Assembly: GCA_902797165.1 (NCBI GenBank)
Contig: CADBRU010000002.1
Location: 1 to 64,000 of the forward strand
Length of the DNA stretch: 64,000 nt
Direction of reading: 5' to 3'
From: an uncultured Elusimicrobium sp.
Lineage (GTDB): Bacteria; Elusimicrobiota; Elusimicrobia; Elusimicrobiales; Elusimicrobiaceae
The notes under the pieces: generated by a model
Seen by the model: the letters and a program-made list of their open reading frames with translations, nothing else
Database searches by the model: none
Told to the model about the DNA's origin: nothing
In this document: positions 33,411 to 62,614 of the stretch, piece after piece
How positions within the stretch are numbered: position 1 is the stretch's first letter
Layout of the letters: each line of letters opens with the position of its first letter
Program-made: the position numbers and the translations under genes

Positions 33411-33911
33411 TTACAGATCTGCATCTGCATATTTCCAACCTACACTTTCATACTGTTTGCAGATTTTTCGTCCTAAATCTGTTGATTCCGTAACACAAGA
33501 TTGATACCAATTCCCGACAGGGGAATCATTATTATAATTGTTAGGGTTAGTGGTCGCGTAAAAATCATAATATAAATCTGCATTAGGGGTGGTCTCTATT
33601 TCGACACCAGTAGAAAGGAATCTAATGCAATAAGTAAAATATTTAGTAGCATAACACTGCGAACTTTCCCAGGTGCCACCAGATAGATCTACCGAAGCAA
33701 TATCTTTATAAGAAACACTACCGCTGCTTGGCAGTCCATTTTCCATAATATATAGGTCTATTTGTTGTTTTATGGTGGCCACATTAGACATTACTTCCGC
33801 TACGCGTGCCTTTTCCACCGCTACGGTATATTGCGGTAGTGCAATAGCCGATAAGATGCCGATAATTAAAACTACCACTAATAGTTCAATTAAAGTAAAA
33901 CCTTTTTTCAT
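33411..33911 (-). CDS. Type IV pilin, PilA-like (major-pilin candidate)
   Basis: A 166-aa pilin with leader MKKG and mature start FTLIELLVV, with the following helix and ALPQY identical to the pilins at 37864 and 57704. The globular domain ends in a Cys-bearing region (SQCYATKYFTYCIRF, QSCVTESTDLGRKICKQY), giving a likely disulfide loop. It is a single-gene unit with its own promoter and a terminator on each side, as expected for a highly expressed subunit. Confidence 0.9.
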   Translation of the reverse strand: MKKGFTLIELLVVVLIIGILSAIALPQYTVAVEKARVAEVMSNVATIKQQIDLYIMENGLPSSGSVSYKDIASVDLSGGTWESSQCYATKYFTYCIRFLSTGVEIETTPNADLYYDFYATTNPNNYNNDSPVGNWYQSCVTESTDLGRKICKQYESVGWKYADADL

Positions 33912-33947: not shown

Positions 33948-33975
33948 ATTATAGTTTTTTTAAGTGATTTGTCGA
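33948..33975 (-). promoter_or_regulatory. Promoter of the pilin at 33911
   Basis: On the minus strand TCGACA (33975-33970), a 16-bp spacer and a perfect TATAAT (33953-33948), followed by a leader of about 30 nt with a GGAGG ribosome site. It lacks the T13 element found at the other two pilins with the same N-terminus. Confidence 0.65.
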
Positions 33976-36327: not shown

Positions 36328-37617
36328 ATGTCCATTTTCAAAACCGCTTCGGCGGGTGATGTAAAAACCAAACAATTAGGTAAAGAAGGATGTCGGGTTA
36401 CGCTGCAAGTAACTGCCGAAACCAATTTAATCAATCAATCTTTTCAAAATGCGGCCGTACAAGTGCAATCTCGCGCGCAAATGCAAGGTTTCCGCGCCGG
36501 AAAAGTACCCCTTGATTTAGTCAAACAAAATTTTGCCGGACATATTAAGGAGCGAGCCTTGGACTTAGCGGTTAAAGCCGCCATTACCGCCGCGCTGGAG
36601 CAAACTAAATTAAATCCGGTAACTATTCCCGCTTTGACCAAAGCCGATTTCAATACCTTTGATGAAGGAAAACCGTTTGAATTTGAATTGGCTATTGATG
36701 TAGCGCCGGAATTTGAAGTAAAAGATTACAAAGCCATTCCCGTTACTAAAAAATCTGAAACCGCTACTGAAAAAGAAGTGACGGAACAATTAAACCGCAT
36801 TTTAGAAGGTAATGCCCGCTTGGAAAGTGCTGCCGAAGGGGCCACTATTACCGACAAAGTATATGCAGTTGTCAAATACACCGGTAAACGCAACGGAACC
36901 GATGATTATAAATTGTGTGCCGACAGTGAACTGGTAGATATGGCTGCCCCGCAAACTATGCCGGACTTGGCCAAAAATATTTTAGGTCTTAAAAAAGGCG
37001 AGAGCAAAGATTACGAAGTTAAAGAAGGCAAGGACACTTTGTCTTTCCATGTAACGGTGGATGATATTAAAAACAAAATTATACCGGAGTTGAACGATTC
37101 TTTTGCCAAAGATATGGGCTTTGATAATTTGGATGCCTTAAAAGCGCGCGTAAAAGAAGGTTTGAACGCCGAAGCAAAAGCCAACGCAGAGCGTGATTTT
37201 ACCGCCCAAATCGAAGATCATTTAGTTAAAATGAATCATTTTGAATTGCCGCAAACTTTAGTAGAAGAATATACGCAACATTCGTTAAATAATTTTGTGC
37301 GCAATGTAACGCAAATGAAAGTGGAAGATTTGACTGCCGAGCAACGCAAAAGTTTTGAAGAACGTATCCGCCCGACGGTAGAAAAAGATTTACGCATTGG
37401 CTATATTATTCATGCCATTGCCCATAAAGAAAACCTAGAAGCCACTGAAGCAGATTGGCAAGCCGAGTTAGACAAGAGTTTAACCGCCAATGCCAAAAAC
37501 AAAGAGGATGAAAAGAAAATACGTGCTTTCTTTGAAGAGCGCAAAGAACATATCTTGGCTACTTTAAACGAACGCAAAGTATTTGATTTCCTCAAAAAAG
37601 AAGCAGTTGTAAAATAA
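36328..37617 (+). CDS. tig: Trigger factor
   Basis: A 429-aa ribosome-bound chaperone. The N-terminal ribosome-binding domain has the signature MQGFRAGKVPLDLV (usual GFRxGKxP), the middle PPIase-like domain spans about 150-235, and the C-terminal arm domain runs to FDFLKKEAVVK. It meets nascent chains at the ribosome exit. Usual tig-clpP-clpX linkage is absent; instead it follows two tRNA genes. Confidence 0.95.
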   Translation: MSIFKTASAGDVKTKQLGKEGCRVTLQVTAETNLINQSFQNAAVQVQSRAQMQGFRAGKVPLDLVKQNFAGHIKERALDLAVKAAITAALEQTKLNPVTIPALTKADFNTFDEGKPFEFELAIDVAPEFEVKDYKAIPVTKKSETATEKEVTEQLNRILEGNARLESAAEGATITDKVYAVVKYTGKRNGTDDYKLCADSELVDMAAPQTMPDLAKNILGLKKGESKDYEVKEGKDTLSFHVTVDDIKNKIIPELNDSFAKDMGFDNLDALKARVKEGLNAEAKANAERDFTAQIEDHLVKMNHFELPQTLVEEYTQHSLNNFVRNVTQMKVEDLTAEQRKSFEERIRPTVEKDLRIGYIIHAIAHKENLEATEADWQAELDKSLTANAKNKEDEKKIRAFFEERKEHILATLNERKVFDFLKKEAVVK

Positions 37618-37746: not shown

Positions 37747-37776
37747 GTTTACTTAAAAAGGACCTATATAAAAATA

Positions 37777-37821
37777 GGTCCAAAAAAGACTTGACAAACG
37801 CAGTTTTTTTTTTTTTACTAT
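37777..37821 (+). promoter_or_regulatory. Pilin promoter with T13 tract (copy 1)
   Basis: TTGACA (37791-37796), then AACGCAG, a run of 13 T (37804-37816) and TACTAT as the best -10 box (37816-37821). The spacer is 19 bp, two above optimum. The segment from CTTGACA through T13 is identical at 57615-57641. A ribosome site GGAGG follows before the ATG at 37864. Confidence 0.55.
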
Positions 37822-37863
37822 AGTAATAGTAATATGCTACAGTAAAATAAAAAGGAGGAAAGC

Positions 37864-38346
37864 ATGAAAAAAGGTTTTACCTTAATTGAACTGTTGGTGG
37901 TTGTGCTGATTATTGGGATATTGTCTGCTATTGCATTGCCGCAATATGAAAAGGCGGTAGAAAAAGCCCGGATCAGTGAAGCAAGAATAGTACTTAATTT
38001 TATTTTAAGACAACATCAATTGTGTGTTTTGGAAAACGGATCTTCCGCTACTATTTGCTCCGATGAAGACCGAGCATTTTTTAATCAATATTTATCAGAC
38101 ATGCCCGGCACATTAAATACGGATATAGATACTTGCCCTTCAAGTGGATCTTACTGCTGGGTAACGAAAGATTGGGCTTACGATACAGATAGTGATGATT
38201 TTTATGCAAATCGTATTTTTAGTGGAAATACGAGTTCATCCCCGTATTTCTTAGCTATGGCTCCAAGTGGCACTATTACTTGTATTAACAATGGCACCAA
38301 AGATTACTGCAAAATGATTTGTGGCGTAAACAGATGCACCTTATAA
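37864..38346 (+). CDS. Type IV pilin, PilA-like
   Basis: A 160-aa pilin with leader MKKG and mature start FTLIELLVV, ending the helix in ALPQYEKAVEKAR. The globular domain has many Cys (QLCVLENG, TICSDED, DTCPSSGSYCW, ITCINNGTKDYCKMICGVNRC), so a disulfide-rich head is likely. It is a single-gene unit with the T13 promoter and its own terminator. It lies just before the O-antigen-ligase-like gene. Confidence 0.9.
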   Translation: MKKGFTLIELLVVVLIIGILSAIALPQYEKAVEKARISEARIVLNFILRQHQLCVLENGSSATICSDEDRAFFNQYLSDMPGTLNTDIDTCPSSGSYCWVTKDWAYDTDSDDFYANRIFSGNTSSSPYFLAMAPSGTITCINNGTKDYCKMICGVNRCTL

Positions 38347-38377
38347 GTTAGAAAATAATTTTAATCAATTTTTTAAT

Positions 38378-38410
38378 AAAAGAGGAAATTTTTAAAATTT
38401 CCTCTTTTGT
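38378..38410 (+). terminator. Terminator of the pilin at 37864
   Basis: A perfect stem AAAAGAGGAAATTT/AAATTTCCTCTTTT around a short loop, ending in TTTTGTTTT. Confidence 0.75.
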
Positions 38411-38504: not shown

Positions 38505-41108
38505 ATGCTTCCAGTAACCAAAGAGGTAAACGAAGGGCGCTATATTAGGGTATTGCGTTGGCTGCTTTCTGCCTGTTTTTTGATGGTGCCTCTTTTGTTT
38601 TTTACCGATTTGACGGCCAATCCGTTTGCGGTACAAAGCGTTTTATTATACATATTAATTGCCTTGATGTATGGCGCATCTGCGGTGCGTTTTTTGCGCG
38701 CGAAAAAAATAAATTTTACCCGCACTTTCTTTGATTTGGCTTTCCTTATGTATATATTGGCAACGGTGGTGGGCTGGCTCTCTTCCATGTCGGCGGCTGC
38801 ACAATATATGCGGCAAACTCTATTCTTCAATTTACTGGATTTCGGTACTCTGCTGCTTGTAGTGTCTATGGGCGCATATGTGTTTAGTAAAAATGTGGTG
38901 TTTAGCGGTATTATCGAAAGTAAAACCCATTATATTTTGCTTTTTATCGTATGGGGGGGAATGTGGCTCATGCTCCCTTGGCTCAAAACCAATTTAACGG
39001 GAGATGGTTTTTGGGCCCATGTGTTTGACGTGTATGGCGTTGTTTTGTGGGCGACTGGTATTTGGCTCGGTACACGTATTTTGCGCAAATTGACGCAAGA
39101 AAATGTACTGGTGCTCAGTTTTATTGCGTGCGCGCTTGCCTGTATGTATGGGGTGTTTCAGGGGTTTGGCTTAGATGTGTTGTGGCCCTTTGATATGCAC
39201 CAATTTATCAGTAATGCATTCTCCACCTTCGGAAATCCGAACTTTTTGTCTGCTTTTGTGGTGATGTTATTACCGGCTCTGCTGGTTTATTATATGCGGG
39301 CGGAGACCAAACGGGATATTTTGGTATATGGCTTTTTGGTGCTGGTCTATTTGTTCTATTTGTCCTTTGGATTGTGCCGTTCGTGTTGGTTAGCCGCTGC
39401 GGCCGGACTTACCATGATGTGGATGTTTGGTACCTTGCGCGCATTGATTTGGCACCGCAAAGGACGGGTATTTTTACTAGTGGTGCTTGGGGTGGCCGTT
39501 ACCTATTTGCCTGTTTTTGTGCAAAGTTCACGCGAAGCGGTAATCGAAAAAGTAGCGGAATCTACGCAAGTAACGCCGGCTAATATTACGCTGCAAGTAG
39601 CGCGTGAAAATATTTTTCCGGCTTTGCACCAACGCTTATATATGTGGGATGTGTCTAAAGAAATTTTCTTAGGCCGTCCGGTGTTGGGAGCGGGGCTGGG
39701 TAATTTCCAAACTGCTTTTGCACGTACCCAATCTAAAACCTTGCGTCATTACCCCAATTTGCGCGAAATGAAAACAATGACGCAATCTCCGCATAATGAA
39801 TTATTCTTCCAGTTGGCGCAAGGCGGCATTGTGGGAATCGGGCTATTCCTATTTATGTTCATGGTGTTGTTTTTGGAAGTGCATGATTTTGCGGCCCGCA
39901 AAAAAGAGGGGGATAAAAAACAATTATTACAGGCTTTGTTCTGCGGTATTTTGGCTATGCTTGTAGATAATATGCTTAATATCTCTCTGCATACGGTGGT
40001 GCCGGCCTTTATGTTTTGGTGGTTAGTTGGGGCGGAAGTGAGCGGCGTCGGACGGGAGGAAAGCAATGTGGAAATTGTGGCCAACCCCGTGACCAAAACA
40101 GTGGCTTTTACTATTTTGATAGGTAGTGTGCTGATTATCGGTTGGCAAGTATTGGTTTTGCGCAGTCAATTTTTATCCTTCCGCGGTCAAAAAGCATTTG
40201 CTCAACAAAAAATAGAAATGGCCTATACCGATTTGGCAACCGCGTTGCATACCTACCGTGCTAACAGCGAAGCGGGTTTCTCTTTGGGAAATTTATATTT
40301 GGCCGACGGAAAATACGACAAAGCCTTGGAAACTTTTGAAAAAACCTTGTCTGCAGCAGCCTATCGGGATCAAGTTTATTATCATGCGGCTTTGGCGGCT
40401 TTGGGAGAAAAAAATTATGCCAAAGCCGTGCGTTATTTACGTGAAACGGTGCGGCTCGATCCTTTTAACTTAAGTGCTTATGAAACCTTGTCCGAACTGG
40501 TTAAAAATGATGTTATCTACGCCGAAGAGGATACCTTGCAACTCCTGGAGCGGGGCGTCAAATTGTTCCCGCATGACACCACTTTGTGGCATAACTTGGG
40601 AACTATTTATCTAAAACGCGGTGAACAGGAATATGCCAAAACCATTTATAAAAATGCCTTAACCATTGATACATTGGACAAATCTTTACTGCGCAGTTTG
40701 AAAAAATTATATACGTCGGAAGATGAATTGCCTGAGGTATTGGCGCAAGCCACCGAACTACAAAAGTATTATGACCAAATTCAAAATTTACGCGGGGCTT
40801 CCAAGGCTACTTTGAAAACTTTGCGAGATAATTTGGAGGCTTATATTGAAAAATATCCGGAAGATACCAACGGCCCTATTTTACTGGCAAAGTATTTTTC
40901 GTTGACCGGAAATGATATAAAATCCAAAGAATTACTGGAGGATGTACTGGCGCTGCATCCGGATAATTTATCGGCCAATTTGGCATTATCCTCTTTGTTG
41001 CATAGAGCGGAGGATGAACAAACCGCCAAACAATATTTGGAAAATGTCTTATTTTATTATCCAAATAATCAAACGGCTGTCCGACGGTTGGAACGTTTGA
41101 AAGAGTAA
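38505..41108 (+). CDS. O-antigen ligase/Wzy-like membrane protein with TPR domain
   Basis: An 867-aa protein. About twelve membrane helices fill residues 15-560, with an O-antigen-ligase (Wzy_C) signature: FSTFGNPNFLSAFVVMLLPA, a large periplasmic loop, and QSPHNELFFQLAQGG with its conserved His. Residues about 580-867 form TPR repeats (SLGNLYLADGKYDKALETFEK, NLGTIYLKRGEQEYAKTIYK). Such proteins move lipid-linked glycans onto lipid A core or pilin. Its place between a pilin and the pilus operon favours pilin glycosylation, but LPS ligation is equally possible. GGGGTGA precedes the ATG. Confidence 0.8.
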   Translation: MLPVTKEVNEGRYIRVLRWLLSACFLMVPLLFFTDLTANPFAVQSVLLYILIALMYGASAVRFLRAKKINFTRTFFDLAFLMYILATVVGWLSSMSAAAQYMRQTLFFNLLDFGTLLLVVSMGAYVFSKNVVFSGIIESKTHYILLFIVWGGMWLMLPWLKTNLTGDGFWAHVFDVYGVVLWATGIWLGTRILRKLTQENVLVLSFIACALACMYGVFQGFGLDVLWPFDMHQFISNAFSTFGNPNFLSAFVVMLLPALLVYYMRAETKRDILVYGFLVLVYLFYLSFGLCRSCWLAAAAGLTMMWMFGTLRALIWHRKGRVFLLVVLGVAVTYLPVFVQSSREAVIEKVAESTQVTPANITLQVARENIFPALHQRLYMWDVSKEIFLGRPVLGAGLGNFQTAFARTQSKTLRHYPNLREMKTMTQSPHNELFFQLAQGGIVGIGLFLFMFMVLFLEVHDFAARKKEGDKKQLLQALFCGILAMLVDNMLNISLHTVVPAFMFWWLVGAEVSGVGREESNVEIVANPVTKTVAFTILIGSVLIIGWQVLVLRSQFLSFRGQKAFAQQKIEMAYTDLATALHTYRANSEAGFSLGNLYLADGKYDKALETFEKTLSAAAYRDQVYYHAALAALGEKNYAKAVRYLRETVRLDPFNLSAYETLSELVKNDVIYAEEDTLQLLERGVKLFPHDTTLWHNLGTIYLKRGEQEYAKTIYKNALTIDTLDKSLLRSLKKLYTSEDELPEVLAQATELQKYYDQIQNLRGASKATLKTLRDNLEAYIEKYPEDTNGPILLAKYFSLTGNDIKSKELLEDVLALHPDNLSANLALSSLLHRAEDEQTAKQYLENVLFYYPNNQTAVRRLERLKE

Positions 41109-46243: not shown

Positions 46244-47839
46244 ATGAAAAATAGGTTAGGACTCATTCTGGCATTGTTCTTGGTTGCCGGAATATGCCCG
46301 GTAAAAGCCGGAGCGCAAAATGTAGCACAAGATGCTACTGTAACAGCAGAAGAAACTGTCAAATTGGCAGGGGAGTCAGATTTGTATAAGGAGACAGAAG
46401 TTACCTCGCCGTTGGATCGCAAGGTGTCTATTCGTGTGTCCAATGTACCTATATCTGCCTTCTTAAACAGTATTACTACTCAGGCCAAAATTAACTTTAT
46501 TATGAGCGAAGAATTCGCGAATAAAAAAGTGACAGCCTCTTTGACTAAAGTAACCGTGCGTGAAGCATTAGATACTTTGCTGCGCGTTCATGGTTTAACG
46601 TATCAGCGTATTGGAAAAAGTGACAGTTATGTAGTCACCAAACGTTCTAATGATGCTCCGGATACCATTACAAAGATTTATACATTAAGTTATATTTCTT
46701 TACAATCTATCGGAACGGCTAGCAGTGAAATGTCTAACATCATGCCGCAAGATGTGTCATATAGCGGCGGTGGTTCTACCAGCATGTCTTCGACAGGTAG
46801 CGGCATGGGTGGCGGACAATCTACCGGCGGAAACTCTTCCGGTTCGGATGCTTATTCGGGTTCTGCCGAAATTATCGGTATTGTAAAGAGTATGTTGTCT
46901 CCGGTGGGACGTTTAGCCGTAGATGCCCGTACCAATAAATTAATTATTACGGACGTGGCGGAAATCTTCCCCCAAGTAGAAAATATTTTAGCGGAATTGG
47001 ATATTAAACCGCCCCAAATCTTAATCGAAGCCCAAATCGTAGAAGTAGTGAAAACAAGCGGTTTGAGTTTAGGTTTCGAATACGGTGGTTCTGATGGTAC
47101 GATTGTATCTTTTAAAGGACCTACCCGCAAAGTAACTTCTGATTATCTGCGCGGATATAATGCCGACGGTGAAAAGATGCACGGATGGGATTGGATTTTC
47201 CCGAGCAGTTCGGAAGAATCCAGCGGCAGTTCCTCCGGTAGCGGAAGTTCTTCTTCCAGTTCCAGCAGTGATGGTAGCAGTTCCGGCAGCAACTCCAGCG
47301 GTTTATTGGATTTCTCTGCTTTCAGAATCGTATTGAGAACCTTATTAACCCGCGGTGAGGCTAAATATTTAGGAAAACCGAAAGTAGTTACCTTGAACAA
47401 CAAGACGGCTACAATTACCGCCTCTACAGATGCTACCGTAGGTTTCACTCAATCTTTATCCGGTACCGGTGGTACTGAAATGGCTACCTCCTCTGCGGAA
47501 AGAAAACGTGTAGGTTTAACCTTGCAAGTAACCCCGCAGGTAAACCGTGAAGGCTACGTTACTTTGTACGTACAACCTTCTTATTCGGATTTGGTCAGTT
47601 CCGGTTTCGATAACACCAAAGATACAACCACTCGTGCGGCTTCTACGTTAGTACGTGTGAAAAACGGTCAAACGGTAGTTATCGGCGGATTGCTCAGTTC
47701 TCGTGAAACCGATCAAACCCGCAAAGTACCCCTTTTGGGAGATATCCCCATATTGGGATGGTTATTTACCAGCCGCAGCACGTCTAAAACGACGACCGAC
47801 TTGGTACTCTTTATTACACCGACTATTTTGGCAGAATAA
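46244..47839 (+). CDS. pilQ: Type IV pilus secretin PilQ
   Basis: A 531-aa secretin (signal about 1-24). A secretin N0/STN-like domain (VSIRVSNVPISAFLNSITTQAKINFIMSEE) and an N1 domain (VTVREALDTLLRVHGLTY) lead to the C-terminal secretin barrel (RLAVDARTNKLIITDV, AKYLGKPKVVTLNNKTATI, VRVKNGQTVVIGGLLSSRETDQTRKVPLLGDIPILGWLF). It forms the outer-membrane pore for the pilus. A Gly/Ser linker (about 165-205) and a nearly pure Ser run (about 321-352) interrupt the fold. It lacks AMIN domains, so it is short for PilQ. Confidence 0.92.
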   Translation: MKNRLGLILALFLVAGICPVKAGAQNVAQDATVTAEETVKLAGESDLYKETEVTSPLDRKVSIRVSNVPISAFLNSITTQAKINFIMSEEFANKKVTASLTKVTVREALDTLLRVHGLTYQRIGKSDSYVVTKRSNDAPDTITKIYTLSYISLQSIGTASSEMSNIMPQDVSYSGGGSTSMSSTGSGMGGGQSTGGNSSGSDAYSGSAEIIGIVKSMLSPVGRLAVDARTNKLIITDVAEIFPQVENILAELDIKPPQILIEAQIVEVVKTSGLSLGFEYGGSDGTIVSFKGPTRKVTSDYLRGYNADGEKMHGWDWIFPSSSEESSGSSSGSGSSSSSSSSDGSSSGSNSSGLLDFSAFRIVLRTLLTRGEAKYLGKPKVVTLNNKTATITASTDATVGFTQSLSGTGGTEMATSSAERKRVGLTLQVTPQVNREGYVTLYVQPSYSDLVSSGFDNTKDTTTRAASTLVRVKNGQTVVIGGLLSSRETDQTRKVPLLGDIPILGWLFTSRSTSKTTTDLVLFITPTILAE

Positions 47840-47863
47840 TTGCCGTTAGTTGGTTAGTTTTAG

Positions 47864-47897
47864 ATGCTTGCCCCCTTTGCTGAAAGGGGGCAAGCAT
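47864..47897 (+). other. Perfect 15-bp hairpin between pilQ and pilB
   Basis: ATGCTTGCCCCCTTT, a GCTG loop and the exact complement. No T-run follows on the plus strand, so it is not a standard intrinsic terminator. It lies in the only long gap (about 90 bp) of the pilus operon and could stabilise or process the mRNA. Confidence 0.7.
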
Positions 47898-47931
47898 TAG
47901 CAAGAAAAGGGGAAGTCTAAAGGAAAGAAAT

Positions 47932-49662
47932 ATGGCAAAAGAATTAGGTGACATATTATTAGAACAAGGCATTTTAGATGAGGAACAACTCAAACGTGCT
48001 CAGTTATATGCCAAGCAAAATAACACCGGTTTGGCAGAGGCGGTAATAAGTTTCGGTTTTGCCACGGAAGAGCAAGTTACTGCTGCACGTGCAAAACATC
48101 TTTCTTTCCCTTATGCTTCTAAAGAAAACGGTATTTTAACCCCGGAACGCGAGCAAAATTTACAAGGTTTAATTCCGGAAAAATTTGCCCGTGACAATTT
48201 TGTCGTACCTTTGTTTATTGAAGATAATGAATTGGCGGCCGCTTTCTATGATCCGTCAAACTTATTTTTGATTGATAACTTGCGCATGATGGTTGGTAAG
48301 GAAATTCAACCGTTTATTGCGAGTAAAAGCCAAATTTTGTCTGTTATCGATTCTTTCTACGGTAATAAAAACTTATTGGAAGAAGTAGTTAACGAAGCCG
48401 AAAAAACCCCGGAAAGTACGACGGCCGCTGATGAAGATGTACAAATTGATGCCGGAAACCTTGACTTGGATAAGGCAGCCGGGTCCAGTTCGCAGTATAT
48501 TAAATTAGTAAACGCAATCTTGAAACAAGCCATTGCGGAACGTACCTCCGATATTCACTTGGAAATGTTTGATGAACGTGTCAGTTTGCGTTTCCGTATT
48601 GACGGTTCTTTGTATGAACGTACACCGCCTAATAAGGAATCTGTAGCGGCCATTATTTCCCGTATTAAAATTTTGTCTAAACTAGATATCGCGGAAAAAC
48701 GTTTGCCTCAGGACGGTAGTTTTGGTTTGAAATATCAGAACCGTACCATTGAGGTCCGTGTGTCTGTGTGTCCGGCAGTGTATGGAGAAAAACTGGTGCT
48801 TCGTATTTTGGACCGCGGTACCGGTGAAATGAACGTAGATAAATTGGGTTTTGAACCGGAGCAAAAACAGGCCTTCTTGGAAGCCGCCAATTTGCCGCAC
48901 GGTTTGATTTTCTTGACAGGGCCTACCGGATCTGGTAAATCTACTACGTTAAACGCCATATTGACGACGATTCGTACACCGAAACTCAATTTTATGACCT
49001 TGGAAGACCCGGTAGAATACAAATTGGCCGGTATCAGCCAAGTGCAGGTAAAGCCTCAGATCGGTTTAACTTTTGCGGCCGGTCTGCGTTCTTTCTTGCG
49101 TCAAGACCCTGACGTTATTCTGGTAGGGGAGGTCCGCGATACGGAGACGGCCGAAGCCTGCTTGAAAGCGGCCTTGACGGGTCACTTGGTGTTGTCTACC
49201 TTGCACACGAACGATGCTTTGGGTGCTATTCCCCGTTTGATTGATATGGGAATGGAACCGTTCTTATTATCCAGTTCATTGGAACTGGTGGCTGCTCAGC
49301 GTTTGGTACGTATCTTGTGTCCGTATTGCAAGACTCCGTATCATCCGGAATCGTCCATGATTGCCAAAATTATCAATGAAGGGCACTTTAATCCGAAAGA
49401 CGTCAGCACATGGACCTTCTATAAAGCGGTCGGTTGTCCCAAATGTGTAGGAACGGGATATCAGGGCCGCCGTGCTATTTACGAAGTATACCGCGTATCG
49501 GAACAATTGCGTAACATTATTTATAAAACGCAAGACTTGGTGGAAATGCGCAGAGTAATGAATGAAAGCGGGGTGTTGAATTTGCGCGGAAACGGTTGGA
49601 GAAAAGTTGTAAAAGGTTTGACAACTGTAGACGAAATTTTAGGTATTACTACGGAGGGTTAG
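47932..49662 (+). CDS. pilB: Type IV pilus extension ATPase PilB
   Basis: A 576-aa GspE/PilB ATPase. The N-terminal MshEN domain (about 5-145) may bind c-di-GMP; then come Walker A GPTGSGKST (330-338), the Asp box and Walker B (ILVGEVRDTETAE), the His box HLVLSTLHTND, and a tetra-cysteine zinc site (CPYCKTPYHPE and CPKCVGTGYQGRR). It drives pilus extension from the cytoplasm by turning PilC. AGGAAAG precedes the ATG. No pilT retraction gene is nearby. Confidence 0.95.
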   Translation: MAKELGDILLEQGILDEEQLKRAQLYAKQNNTGLAEAVISFGFATEEQVTAARAKHLSFPYASKENGILTPEREQNLQGLIPEKFARDNFVVPLFIEDNELAAAFYDPSNLFLIDNLRMMVGKEIQPFIASKSQILSVIDSFYGNKNLLEEVVNEAEKTPESTTAADEDVQIDAGNLDLDKAAGSSSQYIKLVNAILKQAIAERTSDIHLEMFDERVSLRFRIDGSLYERTPPNKESVAAIISRIKILSKLDIAEKRLPQDGSFGLKYQNRTIEVRVSVCPAVYGEKLVLRILDRGTGEMNVDKLGFEPEQKQAFLEAANLPHGLIFLTGPTGSGKSTTLNAILTTIRTPKLNFMTLEDPVEYKLAGISQVQVKPQIGLTFAAGLRSFLRQDPDVILVGEVRDTETAEACLKAALTGHLVLSTLHTNDALGAIPRLIDMGMEPFLLSSSLELVAAQRLVRILCPYCKTPYHPESSMIAKIINEGHFNPKDVSTWTFYKAVGCPKCVGTGYQGRRAIYEVYRVSEQLRNIIYKTQDLVEMRRVMNESGVLNLRGNGWRKVVKGLTTVDEILGITTEG

Positions 49663-49669
49663 AAACTTT

Positions 49670-50896
49670 ATGCAGAAATACAATTACGTAGTAAAAGATG
49701 GCTCGGGCAAGACACGCAGAGGCAGTATTGCCGCCGAAAGCCGTGACCGGGTTATCTTTGCGTTACAAAATAAGGGATTTGTCGTATTAGAAGTGTCAGA
49801 AGGGGGATCTTCCCTATTCGGCAAAGGTGGAGAACGGAAGAAAGTCGGCGGAAAAGTGCCGGGACACGTGCTGGCATTCTTTGCCGAACAGCTATCTACA
49901 CTGATTGCCGGCGGTGTGCCTTTGGTGCGCGCTATTTCGCTACTCAGTGAATACTCTTCCAACGCTAGATTAGGGATGGTATTAAACCAAGTAGCCAAAG
50001 ATATTGCGGGTGGTAACTCTTTACATTCCGCATTATCTCACCATCCGAAGACCTTTGATAACATTTGGCTATCCTTGGTAGAAGCGGGTGAAGTCGGCGG
50101 TAACTTGGCAGATACGTTGGGACAAATTGCCGGCTATATTAAGACGCAGAATGCGATGCGCAGTAAAATTATTACAGCCATTACATACCCGGCCATCTTG
50201 GCACTGGCCTCCGTGGGTGTATTAATTTACTTCATTTTGGGTATCGTACCTACCTTCGCACAAATCTTTAAAGATTTCAATATTGAGTTGCCTTTAATCA
50301 CCACGATCGTATTAGGTGTGTCCGGATTCTTAATTAACTACGGTGTGCTTATTATATTCGGTTTAGTCTTCTTATTTGTGGCTTTCCGTTTTTACATTAA
50401 AACTCCGGAAGGAAAGAAACGTTGGCATGCTTTCTTAATTGCAATGCCGCTGTTTGGTAATTTCTTGCGCAATATTTACTATTCGCGTATGTTGACCACC
50501 TTGGCTACGCTCTTACGCAGCGGTGTTACCATTTTGAACGCTATCGTAGTATTGGAAGATTCTTTTGATACGAACGTTATCATTAAAAACGCGTTACACA
50601 CGGCTAAACAGGACGTGGCGGCCGGACATTCCATTTCCGATTCTTTCCGGGCGGCAGGCGTTTTCCCCGGCCTGATGACAGAAATGATGCTGATGGGTGA
50701 AGAATCAGGTAAATTGCCGGGTATTATCGCTACGTTGTCTCGGTTCTATTCCGATAACGTAGATCAGTTTATTGCCCGTTTCTCCGCGGTTATTGACCCG
50801 ATCTTAATTGTCGGTATCGGTTCTTTGATCGGTATTATTGTGGCGTCCATTTTCTTACCGATTTTCAAATTGTCTCAAATCGGCAGTGGACAATAA
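49670..50896 (+). CDS. pilC: Type IV pilus inner-membrane platform protein PilC
   Basis: A 408-aa GspF/PilC protein. An N-terminal YNYVVKDGSGKTRRGSIAAES segment is followed by two GspF domains (about 65-190 and 270-395; FFAEQLSTLIAGGVPLVRAISLL, YSRMLTTLATLLRSGVTILNAI), each with membrane helices, and a final helix ending in IFKLSQIGSGQ. It is the rotor on which PilB assembles pilins. It starts eight bases after pilB. Confidence 0.95.
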   Translation: MQKYNYVVKDGSGKTRRGSIAAESRDRVIFALQNKGFVVLEVSEGGSSLFGKGGERKKVGGKVPGHVLAFFAEQLSTLIAGGVPLVRAISLLSEYSSNARLGMVLNQVAKDIAGGNSLHSALSHHPKTFDNIWLSLVEAGEVGGNLADTLGQIAGYIKTQNAMRSKIITAITYPAILALASVGVLIYFILGIVPTFAQIFKDFNIELPLITTIVLGVSGFLINYGVLIIFGLVFLFVAFRFYIKTPEGKKRWHAFLIAMPLFGNFLRNIYYSRMLTTLATLLRSGVTILNAIVVLEDSFDTNVIIKNALHTAKQDVAAGHSISDSFRAAGVFPGLMTEMMLMGEESGKLPGIIATLSRFYSDNVDQFIARFSAVIDPILIVGIGSLIGIIVASIFLPIFKLSQIGSGQ

Positions 50897-55747: not shown

Positions 55748-56260
55748 ATGCCTAAAAAATCATTACCGATGTCGGCAGATTTGTTTGGCACGGTCGAAAA
55801 TACCGTGCCGGTGCAGTCGCCAATCGTTGTTGCGGCCCGAAAATCGGCCCCTAAACGCGTTAAAAAGAGAAAAGAAGGATGTCCTTATCAGCCGGAGTTT
55901 GCGGCACGTCTGCTGGCGTTTTTTGATGTGCCGCCCTTTCGAGTGACGGAAGTGCAGAAAAAGGACGGGTCTATTACTCTACTAGAAACCGCTTCGGAAT
56001 TACCTACTTTTGCGGCTTTTGCCCGGCAACTGGGGGTCACGCAGAAACAACTCATGCAATGGGAAGAAGAACATGCCGACTTTGCCGAAGCCGCCAAAAA
56101 AGCGCGTGATTTACAGGGGGATATTCTGATTCAAAACAGTTTGCGGGGCAATTATTCTGCCTCTTTTGCGGTATTTACTGCCAAAAATATTTTGGGTTGG
56201 ACCGACGGAAAGGAAATGCCGGTACTGCCGCAAACCCTGGTGGTAAGGTGGGAAAAATAA
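55748..56260 (+). CDS. Phage terminase small subunit
   Basis: A 170-aa DNA-packaging protein. A basic N-terminal part (RKSAPKRVKKRK) is followed by a helix-turn-helix region (LPTFAAFARQLGVTQKQLMQWEEEHADFAEA, about 90-120) and LQGDILIQNSLRGNYSASFAVFTAKNILGW, the helical oligomerisation pattern of Gp3/terminase small subunits. It recognises phage DNA and hands it to TerL. Its stop overlaps the TerL start by one base (TAATG). First gene of the phage module. Confidence 0.82.
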   Translation: MPKKSLPMSADLFGTVENTVPVQSPIVVAARKSAPKRVKKRKEGCPYQPEFAARLLAFFDVPPFRVTEVQKKDGSITLLETASELPTFAAFARQLGVTQKQLMQWEEEHADFAEAAKKARDLQGDILIQNSLRGNYSASFAVFTAKNILGWTDGKEMPVLPQTLVVRWEK

Positions 56261-57585
56261 TGCCACGCAAAAAGAAGTCTGCTTCTGATATTTCGGTGGT
56301 AATTCCCTATAAGCCGCGATATCCGCAGACGATTATTCATCCGGCGCTGGAAAGCCACCGCTTTAGTGTGCTTGTTACACACCGGCAACTGGGCAAAACC
56401 GTTTGTGCAATTAATCATTTGCTTAAATGTGCCTTGCAAAATTCATTACCGTCGGCACGTTATTTTTATATTGCTCCGTTTTTAAAACAAGCCAAATTAA
56501 TTGCGTGGGATTATATTCGGCGGTTTTCCGCCCCGATTCCGGGAGTTAAATTATCCGAAACGGAGTTGTGTGTCAGTTTGCCCACAGGTGCAAAAATTTG
56601 GTTGTTGGGGGCGGATAATCCCGATGCTTTGCGCGGTACGTATGCCGACGGAGTAGTTTTGGATGAATATGCGCAAATTAAACCTGAGGTGTACGATGAA
56701 ATCATACGGCCGATGCTACTATCGCGGCAAGGGTGGGTTGTTTTTACAGGAACGCCGAAGGGACAAAATCAATTTTATCAGTTATATCAAGCGGCTCAAA
56801 AAGCCATGCAGACCGACCCGGAGCATTGGTGGTGCGGCGTGTTTCGTGCCGACGAAACAGGCATTATTTCTCCTGCCGAATTAGCCGAACTGCAACGTCG
56901 TACGCCGGAGCATTTGTTTCGGCAAGAATATTTATGCGATTTTACCGCCGATGCCGAGGATATCTTTATTCCTATGGATTTGATTTCACAGGCTTGCGGG
57001 CGCAGTTATGCGCCGGCCGAACTTGCGTATGCGCCCAAAATTATCGGCGTAGATCCCGCGCGTTTCGGGGCGGATAGAAGCGTTATTTTTAAGCGGCGCG
57101 GTTTGCAATCTTATCCGCCGGAGATTTACCAAAAAATAGACCAAATGCAACTGGCAGCCCATGTAGCGGCGGCCATTAAAAGTTTTGCACCGGACGGCGT
57201 GTTTATTGACAGCGGTTGCGGAGGTGGCGTGATAGACCGTTTGCGTCAACTAGGTTTTGAAATTACGGAAGTTAATTTCGGCTCCTCACCGATAAAAGCC
57301 GGACAATATGTTAATAAACGTGCCGAAATATGGGGAAATATGAAGGCATGGCTTGAGGCGGGGGGAGCCTTGCCTGCTTTGCCGGAACTAAAAGCGGATT
57401 TATGTGCGGTGCGTTATGATTTTGATGCGGCGGGGCGGCTGCGCTTAGAAAGCAAAGATATACTTAAAGCACGTTGCGGACACAGCCCCGATTTGGCAGA
57501 TGCGCTGGCCCTTACCTTTGCTATGCCGGTGCAAAAAAGGTCTTTGCACAGTTGTTTCGCACGTAGCGATTACGACGTATTGTGA
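56260..57585 (+). CDS. Phage terminase large subunit
   Basis: A 441-aa packaging motor. The ATPase has a Walker A-like HRQLGKT (Arg42 to Thr47), Walker B VVLDEYAQ (Asp135, Glu136) and a coupling motif VFTGTPKGQNQF. The RuvC-like nuclease has IGVDPARFGADRS (Asp265), FIDSGCGGG and ADALALTFA. It cuts and pumps phage DNA. The start at 56260 abuts terS; the longer frame from 56197 overlaps it. A pilin gene interrupts the usual step to portal. Confidence 0.92.
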   Translation: MPRKKKSASDISVVIPYKPRYPQTIIHPALESHRFSVLVTHRQLGKTVCAINHLLKCALQNSLPSARYFYIAPFLKQAKLIAWDYIRRFSAPIPGVKLSETELCVSLPTGAKIWLLGADNPDALRGTYADGVVLDEYAQIKPEVYDEIIRPMLLSRQGWVVFTGTPKGQNQFYQLYQAAQKAMQTDPEHWWCGVFRADETGIISPAELAELQRRTPEHLFRQEYLCDFTADAEDIFIPMDLISQACGRSYAPAELAYAPKIIGVDPARFGADRSVIFKRRGLQSYPPEIYQKIDQMQLAAHVAAAIKSFAPDGVFIDSGCGGGVIDRLRQLGFEITEVNFGSSPIKAGQYVNKRAEIWGNMKAWLEAGGALPALPELKADLCAVRYDFDAAGRLRLESKDILKARCGHSPDLADALALTFAMPVQKRSLHSCFARSDYDVL

Positions 57586-57602: not shown

Positions 57603-57650
57603 CTGAAAAAAAGGCTTGACAAACGCAGTTTTTTTTTTTTTAAGAATAAT
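57603..57650 (+). promoter_or_regulatory. Pilin promoter with T13 tract (copy 2)
   Basis: TTGACA (57616-57621), AACGCAG and 13 T (57629-57641), identical from CTTGACA through T13 to 37790-37816. The best -10 box is poor at 19-bp spacing (TAAGAA), with AATAAT further downstream (57645-57650). Confidence 0.5.
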
Positions 57651-57703
57651 TATTGTAGTAGTTTGCATAAAAAATTGTATATTATGGGAAAAAGGAGAAA
57701 ATT

Positions 57704-58195
57704 ATGAAAAAAGGTTTTACACTTATCGAACTATTGGTAGTTGTTTTGATTATCGGCATTTTGTCTGCTATTGCTTTGCCGCAGTATCAGGTAGCGGTAG
57801 CCAAATCGCGTGCCGCCACTGTGTTGCCTGTGTTAAAAAATATGAATGATGCGGCCAAGATATATTATATGGGAAATAATACTTATGTGACGGATCTTCG
57901 TGATTTAGATATCGAATTGCCAAGTGGCGGAGAGTATAATAATGACTATACCGAAATGACCTATCCCCATCAGAAATTCAAATTATGTGCCGTCTGTAAT
58001 ACAGATGGTAGTATGCAGGCTTATCCCGATACGACGGGTTTACCTGATTTGTATATAGAATTTTATTACGGCGGAAATAAGATGTGTTGGGCTTCTGCTA
58101 CTTCTACTTTAGAAAATAAAGTTTGTAAATCTTTGGCGGGCGCCGGTGATACTATTACCAGTGGTTCTCGCAAAGGATATGTCTTGAATTTTTAA
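57704..58195 (+). CDS. Type IV pilin lying inside the phage module
   Basis: A 163-aa pilin with leader MKKG and mature start FTLIELLVV, ending the helix in ALPQYQVAVAKSR, nearly identical over 28 residues to the chromosomal pilins at 33411 and 37864. Its nucleotide sequence over that stretch differs at many synonymous sites, so the copy is not recent. The globular part has Cys (KLCAVCNTDG, KMCWAS, KVCKSLAG). GGAGA precedes the ATG. It sits between the terminase large subunit and portal genes with its own promoter, a position where phage morons occur. Confidence 0.9.
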   Translation: MKKGFTLIELLVVVLIIGILSAIALPQYQVAVAKSRAATVLPVLKNMNDAAKIYYMGNNTYVTDLRDLDIELPSGGEYNNDYTEMTYPHQKFKLCAVCNTDGSMQAYPDTTGLPDLYIEFYYGGNKMCWASATSTLENKVCKSLAGAGDTITSGSRKGYVLNF

Positions 58196-58580: not shown

Positions 58581-60143
58581 ATGAATCAAGAAAAAAACCT
58601 ATCGGCGGAAATTTTCCGCCAAGAATACGACCGTATGAAAGCCGACGGACAGGAATGGCAAAAAACGTGGAAGGAATTATCCCGTTTTATTGCGCCGACC
58701 CGCGGATTTTTTGAGGGAGATAAAGCCAACGATGGTAAAAAAATCGATCACCGCAGTTTAATCGATTCTGATCCGCTGCTGGCGGTGGAAGTATTAAGTG
58801 CGGGTATGGTGTCGGGACTGACAAGCCCAAGCCGCAGTTGGTTCGAACTTAGCCTTTCCGACGGGCAATTAAATAAACAAAGTGATGTAAAAACATGGCT
58901 CTATGAGGTGCGCCGACGCATGGAAGATGTGTTTTCTCGCTCCAACTTGTATCACGTTTTGCATGGGTTTTATCAAGAAATTTCCGTGTTTGGCACGGCG
59001 GCATTTTTGCTGGAAGAAGATTTTGACCGGGTGATTTCTTGCCGCAGTTTTACCGCCGGAGAATATGTATTAGGGGCGGATGCCAAAGGACAAATTAATT
59101 CCTTCGGGCGTGAGTTTTTTATGACCGCTTCCCAAATGGCCGAACAATTTGGCAAGGAAAATTTGCCGCTCTCTATTCGTCGCGCCGCGGAAGAAAAACG
59201 CACGCAGTGGTTTAAGGTGCTGCATGTAATTATGCCCAATCCGCAAGCAAATGAAAATAAATTAGATGCCGCTCACATGCCTTTTGTGTCTGCTTATTTT
59301 ACACCGGAGGGGCATTTGTTAAAACGCGGGGGATATCATGAATTTCCGGTAATTGCGGCCCGTTGGGAAGTTAAAAATTCGACGGATATTTACGGACGCG
59401 GCCCGGGGTGGAAGGCCTTGGGTGATGTAAAAATGTTGCAGAAAATGCAAAAAACAAAACTCATTGCCCTTGATAAAAATACCAATCCGCCCATGATGGT
59501 ATCTTCAAATGTGCAAGGGGAAGTAAATTTATTGCCGGGCGGTCTGACCCGCTACAATGGTACGACGGACGCCGCCGTAAAACCCGCCTATCAAGTGCCG
59601 GTTGATCTTCATGCGTTGGAAGCCAGTATCGAGAAAGTTAAACAAACCATTCGCAGCCAATTTTTTGCAGATGTGTTTTTGATGTTAAGTGCGCAAAATT
59701 TTTCACACATGACTGCGACCGAAGTAGCTGAGCGGCATCAAGAAAAAATGTTAGTGTTGGGACCGGTACTGGAACGACTTAAAAATGAATTATTAGATCC
59801 GCTTATTGAGCGTACATTTGCCATTATGATTCGCCGAGGGGTACTACCTTTCCCGCCGGAAAATATGCAAGGACAAGACGTTAAAATTCATTATGTGTCT
59901 ATGATTGCACAAGCCCAAAAACAAAGCGGTATGGCGGCTATCGAACAAGGCATTGCCTTTACCGCCCAACTGGCTCAAGCCAATCCGCAAGTGTTGGACC
60001 GTGTCAACTTTGATGCGGCCTTGGAAGAAGGACTTGATTTATTGGGGGTGCCCGCGGTGATGTTGCGCTCGCCAGCAGAAACTTCGCAGTTGCGTGCGCA
60101 ACGTCAGATGGCAGAAATAACTGCAGTCACGACTCCTAAATAG
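58581..60143 (+). CDS. Phage portal (head-tail connector) protein
   Basis: A 520-aa podovirus-type portal. N-terminal FRQEYDRMKADGQEWQKTWKELSRFIAPTRG and SLIDSDPLLAVEVLSAGMVSGLTSPSRSWFEL are typical of the head-to-tail connecting family, as is the VFGTAAFLLEED segment. The C-terminal part contains SHMTATEVAERHQEKMLVLGPVLERL. It forms the dodecameric DNA gate in the head. AAGGGGA precedes the ATG. About 120 bp with two hairpins follow before the next gene. Confidence 0.9.
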   Translation: MNQEKNLSAEIFRQEYDRMKADGQEWQKTWKELSRFIAPTRGFFEGDKANDGKKIDHRSLIDSDPLLAVEVLSAGMVSGLTSPSRSWFELSLSDGQLNKQSDVKTWLYEVRRRMEDVFSRSNLYHVLHGFYQEISVFGTAAFLLEEDFDRVISCRSFTAGEYVLGADAKGQINSFGREFFMTASQMAEQFGKENLPLSIRRAAEEKRTQWFKVLHVIMPNPQANENKLDAAHMPFVSAYFTPEGHLLKRGGYHEFPVIAARWEVKNSTDIYGRGPGWKALGDVKMLQKMQKTKLIALDKNTNPPMMVSSNVQGEVNLLPGGLTRYNGTTDAAVKPAYQVPVDLHALEASIEKVKQTIRSQFFADVFLMLSAQNFSHMTATEVAERHQEKMLVLGPVLERLKNELLDPLIERTFAIMIRRGVLPFPPENMQGQDVKIHYVSMIAQAQKQSGMAAIEQGIAFTAQLAQANPQVLDRVNFDAALEEGLDLLGVPAVMLRSPAETSQLRAQRQMAEITAVTTPK

Positions 60144-60261
60144 CAGAACAAAAAAAGAAACGGGGTTTCGCCTAAGAAGGGTGGCCTAAAATTAACGAGC
60201 GCCCCTTGGCGAAGGGGAGAGGAAAGGACGTCATTTTCCTCTCTACCCCGAAGGGAAATAT
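60144..60261 (+). other. Intergenic hairpins between portal and the Bbp19-like gene
   Basis: CCCCTT/AAGGGG (loop GGCG) followed by GAGAGGAAA/TTTCCTCTC (60217-60225 and 60235-60243). Neither is followed by a T-run. They could be RNA-processing sites in the late mRNA. Confidence 0.4.
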
Positions 60262-60570
60262 ATGAGTAAACGATCTCGTGAAAAAAGAAATACAGCCGAT
60301 TTGGCTTGCCTGTTAAAGTTACCGCAAGGCCGACGTGTTTTGTGGCGTATCATGCAAGCAGCACGTTTGGATGAACACGGTTTTGTCCCCGCAGATCCGT
60401 ATGCAACGGCTTTCCATTGCGGACAAAAAAGTATCGGCCTTTTTTTACAGGCAGAAATTGCCCAAATTTCGCCGCTGATGTTAGCGCAAATGCGTGCGGA
60501 ATATATTTCAGAGACCACCTCTGAACAAAATCAAATTAATAAAGAAAACGAGGAAATGCACAATGTCTGA
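60262..60570 (+). CDS. Bbp19-like phage protein
   Basis: A 102-aa protein with the pattern of the Bbp19 family: GRRVLWRIMQAARLDEHGF, an aromatic loop, then HCGQKSIGLFLQAEIAQISPLMLAQMRAE. The family is small, widespread in podovirus head modules and of uncertain role. It lies between portal and the scaffold-like gene, as in phage BPP-1. It overlaps the next gene by 8 nt. Confidence 0.8.
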   Translation: MSKRSREKRNTADLACLLKLPQGRRVLWRIMQAARLDEHGFVPADPYATAFHCGQKSIGLFLQAEIAQISPLMLAQMRAEYISETTSEQNQINKENEEMHNV

Positions 60571-61156
60571 AACCTCCCAAGAAAACAGTACACCCGTTAC
60601 AAATTTAACCGATAAACAGGTCGCCGAAGTATCCGACCGGCCGAGCCAAGCGGAAGTGATTTCCGAGAAGGATCGGTTGCCAGAAAATCAAACAACTTGT
60701 TTTGATGTGGACGTCTACAAAGACGTGCAATTACCCCAGTCGTTGCAAGGTGGTGAGGAGCATTTTGCTTCTTTTAAAACCTTAGCGGCGCAACTTAACT
60801 TGCCCGCCGAAACCGTGCAGAAATTGGTGGCATGGGAAGCCGCTATTGCCGATGACGAACAGAAAAAAACGCAAGCGGATCGTGCCGATATTCTGCAGAA
60901 ATGGACGGACCGAACCAAAGAAATATTGGGGCCGTCTTATCAGCGGGAAATCTGCCGTGCGTTGGAAGCGGTAGATCGTTTCGGCGGGCCGCAGTTGCGG
61001 GAATTGTTAGAAGTGACGGGACTGGGAAATCATCCCGTTATCGTCAAAACGTTTCAACAAATCAGTGCGCAAATCGGGGAAGATATTTCTGTGAGCGGGC
61101 GGACGCGCCATCAAATAGATAAAACTTTTGCCGAAGCACTTTACGGAAAGGAGTAA
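60563..61156 (+). CDS. Probable phage scaffold or capsid-assembly protein
   Basis: A 197-aa acidic, mostly helical protein, placed directly before the major capsid gene. The N-terminal 60 residues look disordered (SETSQENSTPVTNLTDKQ). The middle has LAAQLNLPAETVQKLVAWEAAIADDEQ and WTDRTKEILGPSYQREICRALEAVDRFGG, which resemble the C-terminal helical region of podovirus scaffold proteins. The assignment rests on composition and position. The start at 60563 is chosen over 60494 because it avoids long overlap and follows GAGGAAA. Confidence 0.65.
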   Translation: MSETSQENSTPVTNLTDKQVAEVSDRPSQAEVISEKDRLPENQTTCFDVDVYKDVQLPQSLQGGEEHFASFKTLAAQLNLPAETVQKLVAWEAAIADDEQKKTQADRADILQKWTDRTKEILGPSYQREICRALEAVDRFGGPQLRELLEVTGLGNHPVIVKTFQQISAQIGEDISVSGRTRHQIDKTFAEALYGKE

Positions 61157-61202
61157 CCTCTCTTTCCCGTCCTATCAGGACCAACTTTAACAAGGAAATT
61201 TT

Positions 61203-62180
61203 ATGGCAATTATTGCAGAGAAACAATATAACTTGCTCGATTATGCCAAACAATTTGACGAATCGGGCCAAGAACTTGCGATCGCCGAAGTACTGAGTAA
61301 ATCTAATCCGATTATCGGCGATGCATTAGTGATTGAAAGTAATTTAGACAGCGGCCATGAGTATGCCGTACGTACCGGAATTCCGGAAGGTACTTGGCGC
61401 CGCGCTTATCAAGGCATTGAACCGGCCAAAGCCACTACTAAAGTGGTGGTAGAAGGATACGGTACTTTGTCTGCTTATTCCGTCGTCGATAAACTCATTG
61501 CGGAAAAGGGCGGCAATTTACAAGCCGTACGTACCGGCCAAAGTAAAGCCATTATTGCCGGTATGTCTAACACCATGGCACACAATATAATTTACGGAAA
61601 CGCGGGGGAAACTCCGGAACGCTTTACCGGACTGGCTGCCCGTTACAGTGCGCTTTCCGGTGCCGAAAGTGCCAAAAACGTAATCGATGCGGGGGGAAGT
61701 ACCGACGGTCAAAATTCATCTATTTACTTAGTGGTATGGGACAGTGACAAAGTCTTTACTTTCTTTCCGAAAGGCTCTAAAGCCGGTATTGAGCGTGTCG
61801 ATCATGGTTTAGTAAATCACGTCGATGCCAGCAACAATGAATATCCCGCCTACAAAGAATATTTCGAGTGGAAACTGGGCCTTGCCGTGCAAGATTGGCG
61901 TTATGCCGGACGTATTTGCAACATTGATGTGACTAATGTCCCGTCTACGTTGATTGACAAGATGTGTGAATTGGAAGAAAAAATTCAAAGTTTAAACTTG
62001 GGCAAACCGGTTTGGTATATGAACCGTACCGTCAAGGCTGCCTTGCGTAAATTAGCCAGCAGCAAACAAAATGTCCAATACACACCGGACCAAATTACCA
62101 GCCGTCCTATGATGACGTTTAACGAAATTCCGGTCCACGTATGTGATGCAATCGTCGATACGGAAAATGTGGTGGCTTAG
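61203..62180 (+). CDS. Phage major capsid protein
   Basis: A 325-aa capsid protein of the BPP-1/Bbp17 type: NLLDYAKQFDESGQELAIAEVLSKSNPIIGDALVIES, then GIPEGTWRRAYQGIEPAKATTKVV and NTMAHNIIYGNAGETPERFTGLAARY, ending near a PVHVCDAI strand. It forms the icosahedral shell with an HK97-like fold. CAAGGAA precedes the ATG. A cement-protein gene follows 14 bp later. Confidence 0.9.
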   Translation: MAIIAEKQYNLLDYAKQFDESGQELAIAEVLSKSNPIIGDALVIESNLDSGHEYAVRTGIPEGTWRRAYQGIEPAKATTKVVVEGYGTLSAYSVVDKLIAEKGGNLQAVRTGQSKAIIAGMSNTMAHNIIYGNAGETPERFTGLAARYSALSGAESAKNVIDAGGSTDGQNSSIYLVVWDSDKVFTFFPKGSKAGIERVDHGLVNHVDASNNEYPAYKEYFEWKLGLAVQDWRYAGRICNIDVTNVPSTLIDKMCELEEKIQSLNLGKPVWYMNRTVKAALRKLASSKQNVQYTPDQITSRPMMTFNEIPVHVCDAIVDTENVVA

Positions 62181-62194
62181 TAGAGGGGGAGATT

Positions 62195-62572
62195 ATGTTA
62201 ATTGATAATAGTTTGGTTCTTTCCGAAGGACAATCTGTCTTGGCCACTGCGGCTTCTACCAATGTAATTGATCAAACTGCCGCCGGTGGCGCACATACGC
62301 ACGCTGCTTTTATAGTGCGGGTAGATCAAACCTTTGCGGGGTCTACCGCAGTTAAGATTGCATTGGAAACTTCCGCGGCTTCTGCTTTCGGTACCAAAAA
62401 AGAAGTCTTTGCTACGTCCGTGGCAGCAGCGGACTTGGTAGCGGGGGCAACTGTGGTAAAAGCGGTATTGCCGGCTGGGCTCTTGCGGTATATCCGCGGT
62501 TATTATACGGTTACCGGAGAAGGTACTGCAGGGAAACTGTCTATGTATATTACAGAAGCAGTGGACCTATAA
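62195..62572 (+). CDS. Bbp16-like capsid cement protein
   Basis: A 125-aa protein rich in Ala, Val and Thr with a beta-jellyroll look (MLIDNSLVLSEGQSV, then FIVRVDQTFAGSTAVKIALET and RYIRGYYTVTGEGTAGKLSMYI). In BPP-1 a similarly sized protein directly after the major capsid gene stabilises the shell from outside. Here the gene follows the capsid gene by 14 bp, with GGGGAGA before the ATG. A terminator-like hairpin ends the head operon after it. Confidence 0.8.
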   Translation: MLIDNSLVLSEGQSVLATAASTNVIDQTAAGGAHTHAAFIVRVDQTFAGSTAVKIALETSAASAFGTKKEVFATSVAAADLVAGATVVKAVLPAGLLRYIRGYYTVTGEGTAGKLSMYITEAVDL

Positions 62573-62581
62573 AATAAGCAA

Positions 62582-62614
62582 GGGGGCGCGCTTTTCTGCC
62601 CGCGCGCCTCTTTT
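62582..62614 (+). terminator. Terminator-like hairpin after the head genes
   Basis: GGCGCGC (62585-62591), a 10-nt loop, GCGCGCC (62602-62608) and then TCTTTT. It is the likely end of the head-gene transcript. Confidence 0.6.

Follow-up and report, generated by a model that had tools for sequence, protein, structure and literature searches.

Type IV pilin genes of an uncultured Elusimicrobium sp. (assembly GCA_902797165.1) are preceded, in many scattered places, by promoters that carry a mononucleotide tract of T or A between recognisable -35 and -10 boxes. The starting point was a 64-kb stretch of this genome (positions 1 to 64,000 of contig CADBRU010000002.1, hereafter the window), which holds two such promoters with identical tracts. 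We propose, with a probability of roughly 0.7, that these are simple-sequence contingency promoters, a dispersed family in which each member drives a single-gene type IV pilin unit and would tune or switch its pilin by slippage of the spacer. Carrying this proposal are direct observations on the anatomy of the promoters, their repetition before pilins throughout the genome, the concentration of long homopolymers at these sites, the variation in tract length between constant flanks, and a total spacing that is conserved in relatives. The family comes in two polarities (T and A) and extends across the genus, and is thus wider than the pair recognized in a first-pass annotation of the window.

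Two tract promoters in the window

Exact copies of a 27-mer, CTTGACAAACGCAG followed by T13, were found in the window only at 37790-37816 and 57615-57641 (2 observed versus 0 expected from 100 shuffles, with none further at up to 3 mismatches); the same two copies hold its only T or A runs of at least 10. As the first-pass annotation had claimed, both lie upstream of pilins, starting at 37864 and 57704, whose coding DNA has diverged: the encoded proteins are identical over residues 1-28 and divergent beyond. The prepilin N-terminal cleavage/methylation motif was matched above cut-off (PF07963 and TIGR02532) in the three window pilins that share this N-terminus. The promoters and their genes are as follows.

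37790-37821, plus strand: tract promoter 1, with -35 box TTGACA (37791-37796), lead AACGCAG, T13 (37804-37816), presumed -10 box TACTAT (37816-37821) and a 19-bp spacer
37854-37858, plus strand: ribosome-binding site GGAGG, from the sequence
37864-38346, plus strand: type IV pilin-like protein, 160 amino acids (aa), with PF07963 and TIGR02532 matches
57615-57647, plus strand: tract promoter 2, with -35 box TTGACA (57616-57621), T13 (57629-57641) and presumed -10 box at 57641-57646 or 57642-57647
57694-57697, plus strand: ribosome-binding site GGAG, from the sequence
57704-58195, plus strand: type IV pilin-like protein, 163 aa, with PF07963 and TIGR02532 matches, inside a prophage head module
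33411-33911, minus strand: third pilin with the same N-terminus, from a profile match
33948-33975, minus strand: A-tract relative of these promoters before the third pilin, with TCGACA, a 16-bp spacer containing A7, and TATAAT

The T run had been placed between the -35 and -10 boxes, giving a spacer of about 19 bp. Its position and the 19-bp value stand, but the two -10 hexamers differ from each other and are weak, and spacers of 20 or 22 bp are also possible. After 37790 the candidates are TACTAT (4/6) at a spacer of 19 bp and TATAGT (5/6) at 22; after 57615, where an extra A is present, they are TAAGAA at 19 and AAGAAT at 20. Paralogous promoters carry TACAAT or TAGAAT at this place, and both window copies are weaker there. 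The third pilin, said to lack such an element, indeed has no T run, but the related A-tract promoter listed above lies before it. Two other kinds of promoter were set aside: the known MerR type of regulation at 19-20 bp spacers, the homopolymer spacer having no dyad, and a sigma-54 promoter, sigma-70-type -35 and -10 boxes being present.

The promoter family across the genome

The genome to which the window belongs (G000; 1.31 Mb, 33 contigs, 88.7% complete) had 131 matches to the N_methyl family, 130 of them above cut-off, and the sequence preceding each of these pilins was inspected. A whole-genome scan for further copies, which the first-pass annotation had called for, found 20 perfect matches to the core element CTTGACAANNNNAGT8; the two window copies are identical because the window holds 2 of these 20 members of a repeated promoter family. 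When a longer form of the element was searched with 3 mismatches allowed, it had 21 matches versus 0 for the reversed control. Beside this T class there are an A class (CTTGACAAGCCT followed by A12-14, and similar) and an interrupted class (TTGATA...TTTTTCTTTTTAGAAT), and some pilins have no such promoter of any class. Among named species genomes, the exact element had one match, by its title a Rhodothermus metagenome-assembled genome.

Long homopolymers are scarce in this genome and gathered at pilins. Only 31 A/T runs of at least 10 were found in the whole genome, and 22 of them are found no more than 250 bp before the start of a pilin, an over-representation of mononucleotide tracts at pilin promoters relative to the genome background. 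Another seven occur in the same promoter with no complete pilin in reach: one on contig C10, followed by a relic reading MKKGFTLE-stop, one at C32:29024, and five near contig ends (C14, C15, C26, C27, and C28). The last two, at C4:27276 and C9:81705, are unrelated, the latter apparently following a tRNA gene as judged from the sequence. The binomial P is about 1e-28 for 22 of 31 runs falling in roughly 2.5% of the genome, a figure that overstates the evidence, since any tracts multiplied by gene duplication do not count as independent. A self-trained Markov null yielded a mean of 8.2 and a maximum of 17 pilin upstream regions with a run of at least 10 versus 21 observed, with the null itself inflated by training on the tracts. 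Counted by gene, 22 of the 131 pilins have such a run upstream, and the rest have an interrupted, a shorter, or no tract.

Common descent might be all there is to this pattern: pilins would have been duplicated together with their promoter, the identical 27-mer would be a relic, and tract length would be neutral noise. In keeping with this, the promoter and the conserved pilin start move together, the pilin is missing at the matching site of a relative (G027, described below), and some orphaned promoters are followed by a relic or by no pilin at all. Shared ancestry accounts for the identity of the copies but not for the gathering of the genome's long homopolymers at these promoters, and it leaves the differing leads, the A and T forms, and the conserved total spacing in relatives unexplained; we consider it distinctly improbable as the sole explanation.

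Tract length and spacing

Judged by comparison of the sequences, the tract appears to be the fastest-changing position of the promoter copies. Among paralogous copies of this one genome, each of the three T-class pairs whose 32-position flanks are identical has tracts of unequal length (T13, T14, and T16), and so do 12 of the 17 pairs with at most 2 flank differences.

A blind promoter finder returned a pair of boxes for 96 of the 131 pilins, though in the absence of a tract many of these pairs are probably spurious; a strict finder retained 55. By the strict finder, a 17-bp spacer was present in 16 of the 27 promoters without a run of at least 7 versus 1 of the 28 with such a run (Fisher p 6e-6). 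The spacers of the tract promoters were spread over 12-22 bp, with 7 of the 28 at 12-15 and 20 at 18-22 (the T5CT5 promoter at C12:3130 was scored at 22 bp, although 17 with TAGAAT is also possible). A perfect TTGACA was seen in 24 of the 28 tract promoters versus 2 of the 27 without a run, as though strength were traded against spacing. Spacing and box counts together therefore describe two kinds of promoter: those that slip poorly, with textbook spacing and a weaker -35 box, and the tract promoters, with a perfect -35 box and off-optimum spacing.

The same design in relatives

Within the 66 genomes of the genus (G000 to G065), pilin N-terminus matches were expanded in all, with 28 to 257 first-look candidates in each. 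The narrow form of the element, TTGAYAANNNNAGT8, was present in G000 and absent from its 65 congeners. That the element is private to this genome was nevertheless rejected, as wider patterns revealed promoters of like design that carry different leads. TTGACA followed by a pilin start within 45-75 nucleotides (nt) was found in 8 of the 66 genomes, and in most rows the spacer contained a tract of A or T. Across 90 genomes of the family, T10 followed by a pilin start occurred in 10 and A10 in 4, while CTTGAC-N2-8-T10 occurred in 64, covering 2 of 6 genera, with a single match over all genomes for the reversed control; these are counts of presence per genome, because each tract can give several starts or ends in the minus-strand CTTGAC-tract counts and the plus-strand T10 and A10 rows. 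Genome G004 has 205 A/T runs of at least 10. In a sample of 14 of its listed stretches, picked by hand and holding 15 tracts, a TTGACA or TTGAAA box preceded all 15, and a pilin lay within 420 nt of 14. For G014, 6 of 7 tracts (6 stretches) had a pilin.

Over the sampled relatives, the spacer was 16 bp in 33 of 56 rows (which include a few spurious ones, e.g., spacers of 6, 11, and 12), reached by a lead of 2 plus T12, a lead of 3 plus T11, or a lead of 4 plus A11. Since different combinations of lead and tract arrive at one total, spacing would be what selection sees. Both polarities also occur before pilins within one genome, making it less likely that a strand-specific sequence is recognized.

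Proposed mechanism and alternatives

In the mechanism that we propose, the spacer between -35 and -10 consists mainly of an A or T homopolymer, in which replication slippage would shift the spacing in steps of 1 bp, reversibly within populations. The boxes would be used by a housekeeping, sigma-70-type factor, and transcription would be strong at about 16-17 bp, weaker at 15 and 18, and nearly silent at 14 or less or at 19 or more. With dozens of promoters per genome slipping independently, the cells of a population may come to carry differing pilin sets; each cell would probably turn different pilins up or down through chance copying slips, and the benefit might be surface variation towards host, phage, or partners. 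The first-pass annotation had suggested that tract length could switch expression of the window's pilins, so that T11 would be predicted to be ON and T13 OFF. The general idea has gained strong comparative support from the homopolymer concentration, the length differences at identical flanks, and the spacings of 17 bp in run-free promoters of this genome and 16 bp in relatives, but its scope was too small.

Several observations weigh against the slippage proposal. The tract lengths were taken from draft assemblies. Most tract promoters in this genome stand at 18-20 bp and no T-class copy stands at 17, meaning that the majority would be OFF unless the optimum assumed for this genome is mistaken. 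The weakened -10 boxes of both window copies may make them poor promoters whatever the tract length. Some relatives show near-uniform tract lengths, G038 for instance having T12 in 11 of its 12 T-tract rows, and a stable design could be the reason. Such uniformity, together with the mostly A11 or T11 tracts of G004 (10 of 13) and with T-rich spacers that survive interrupted (TTTTTCTTTTT) at 17 bp, would also suit a static architecture, in which RNA polymerase is helped by an A/T tract serving as a fixed spacer, stiff or easy to melt, whose length drifts slightly with no switching role. We regard this as unlikely: interrupted tracts would do equally well, yet many copies are uninterrupted; both tract polarities are in use; spacers of 12 to 22 bp in one genome exceed the tolerance of a static strong promoter; and the closest copies differ, over the compared flanks, in tract length alone.

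A further alternative is a DNA-shape rheostat as in Helicobacter pylori sabA, where a T tract beside the -35 box shifts the alignment of the UP element and not the core spacer. The A/T tracts are similar in length, and many of the -35 boxes in the present promoters have a short A run (AAAAAAGA) before them; the tract in these promoters, however, lies between the -35 and -10 boxes, where any change in its length must change the core spacing itself, and we hold this explanation to be very improbable.

The pilin unit and its surroundings

Other features of the window that bear on how these pilins are placed are listed here.

37760-37781, unstranded: inverted repeat GGACCTAT...ATAGGTCC, immediately 5' of promoter 1, the left part of the inserted pilin unit and absent at the matching G027 site
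38380-38407, plus strand: hairpin, likely the pilin's own terminator, as suggested by its sequence
46244-50896, plus strand: pilus machine genes for a PilQ-like secretin (46244-47839), a PilB-like ATPase (47932-49662), and a PilC/GspF-like platform protein (49670-50896), matched under NCBIfam's curated cut-offs
55748-57585, plus strand: prophage terminase genes next to promoter 2 on its left, encoding the small subunit (55748-56260) and the large subunit (56197-57585)
58581-63662, plus strand: prophage head-tail connector (58581-60143), protease (60494-61156), major head protein (61203-62180), and tail protein (63075-63662)

The pilin at 37864-38346 is flanked by trigger factor (36328-37617) and an O-antigen ligase/tetratricopeptide repeat (TPR) protein (38505-41108). 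At the matching site of the relative G027 the intergenic DNA is continuous without a pilin, and the extra DNA of the window runs from about 37760 to 38400, comprising the inverted repeat, promoter, pilin, and terminator-like hairpin. Among the relatives' loci that hold both flanks, only L157 has a pilin at this site. The pilin thus forms a self-contained unit of one gene, found in unrelated places, a prophage among them. A complete unit with its tract promoter (57615-58195) sits in the prophage head module between the terminase large subunit and the portal/head-tail connector. The pilin motif was not found in the examined stretches of 14 viral relatives of the portal, and none of the 14 viral contigs in IMG/VR with TTGACAANNNNAGT8 had it before a pilin.

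A broader claim is more tentative, and we put it at somewhat less than even odds: that the long, slippage-prone homopolymers of a genome in this family are devoted almost wholly to dozens, perhaps at least 100, independently slipping pilin promoters of A and T type, giving each cell its own pilin mix, and that units also carried in prophage, between terminase and portal, could alter host pili from the phage genome.

In 8 of the 131 pilins, the promoter is separated from the ribosome-binding site by palindromic repeat elements of about 100 bp, which contain CTGGATCCCGG and GGGATGAC or belong to another type (L069, L104, L097, L107, L064, L048, L230, and L238; the regular-expression count was 9, including one discounted match at C3:5901), and such elements also lie 3' of another 5 tract promoters (C10:7477 and those at the contig ends on C14, C15, C26, and C27). 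In many pilin promoters the presumed transcript start, immediately 3' of the -10 box, could form a hairpin (CAATTTTTTCGGACGGAAAAATTG and variants), as read by eye at loci L205, L207, L214, L216, and L260-L263 of G022 and G025.

Comparison with known systems

If the slippage proposal is true, the family-wide pilin promoter set of this lineage would be among the largest contingency systems and would help explain why many pilins are retained in these small genomes. The natural series of T7 to T18 and A7 to A14, with varied leads, may also inform how spacer length sets promoter strength. A literature search of titles and abstract openings found no paper on tract promoters of Elusimicrobiota pilins, and the portion of PMC3162934 consulted held nothing on pilins.

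Spacer-slippage promoters are already known for single genes or small families. The vlp family of Mycoplasma hyorhinis has few genes, and porA of Neisseria meningitidis is a single gene with a poly-G tract. In the pilE/pilS system of Neisseria, type IV pilins are diversified by gene conversion into one expressed locus, leaving the N-terminus constant and the remainder variable; that pattern is common to both systems, whereas here there are many complete genes with promoters of their own. The van der Ende 1995 title, listed among the references of PMC7864442 and PMC5084427, indicates for porA that the spacing between -10 and -35 sets expression, the same control variable as proposed here. Several promoters of H. 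pylori, sabA among them, have T or A tracts that vary by slippage, and the sabA tract adjoins the -35 box outside the core spacer and acts by axial alignment, according to the sections consulted of PMC4081817, unlike the tracts described here. Like the pilins, vlp is a multigene surface-protein family; according to the part of PMC10502178 that we drew on, every vlp gene has its own promoter, and the length of the homopolymeric A tract in it correlates with ON and OFF states. The vlp products are lipoproteins behind A tracts, whereas the present family, in another lineage and known from sequence, is far larger and places T and A tracts before dozens of dispersed pilin genes.
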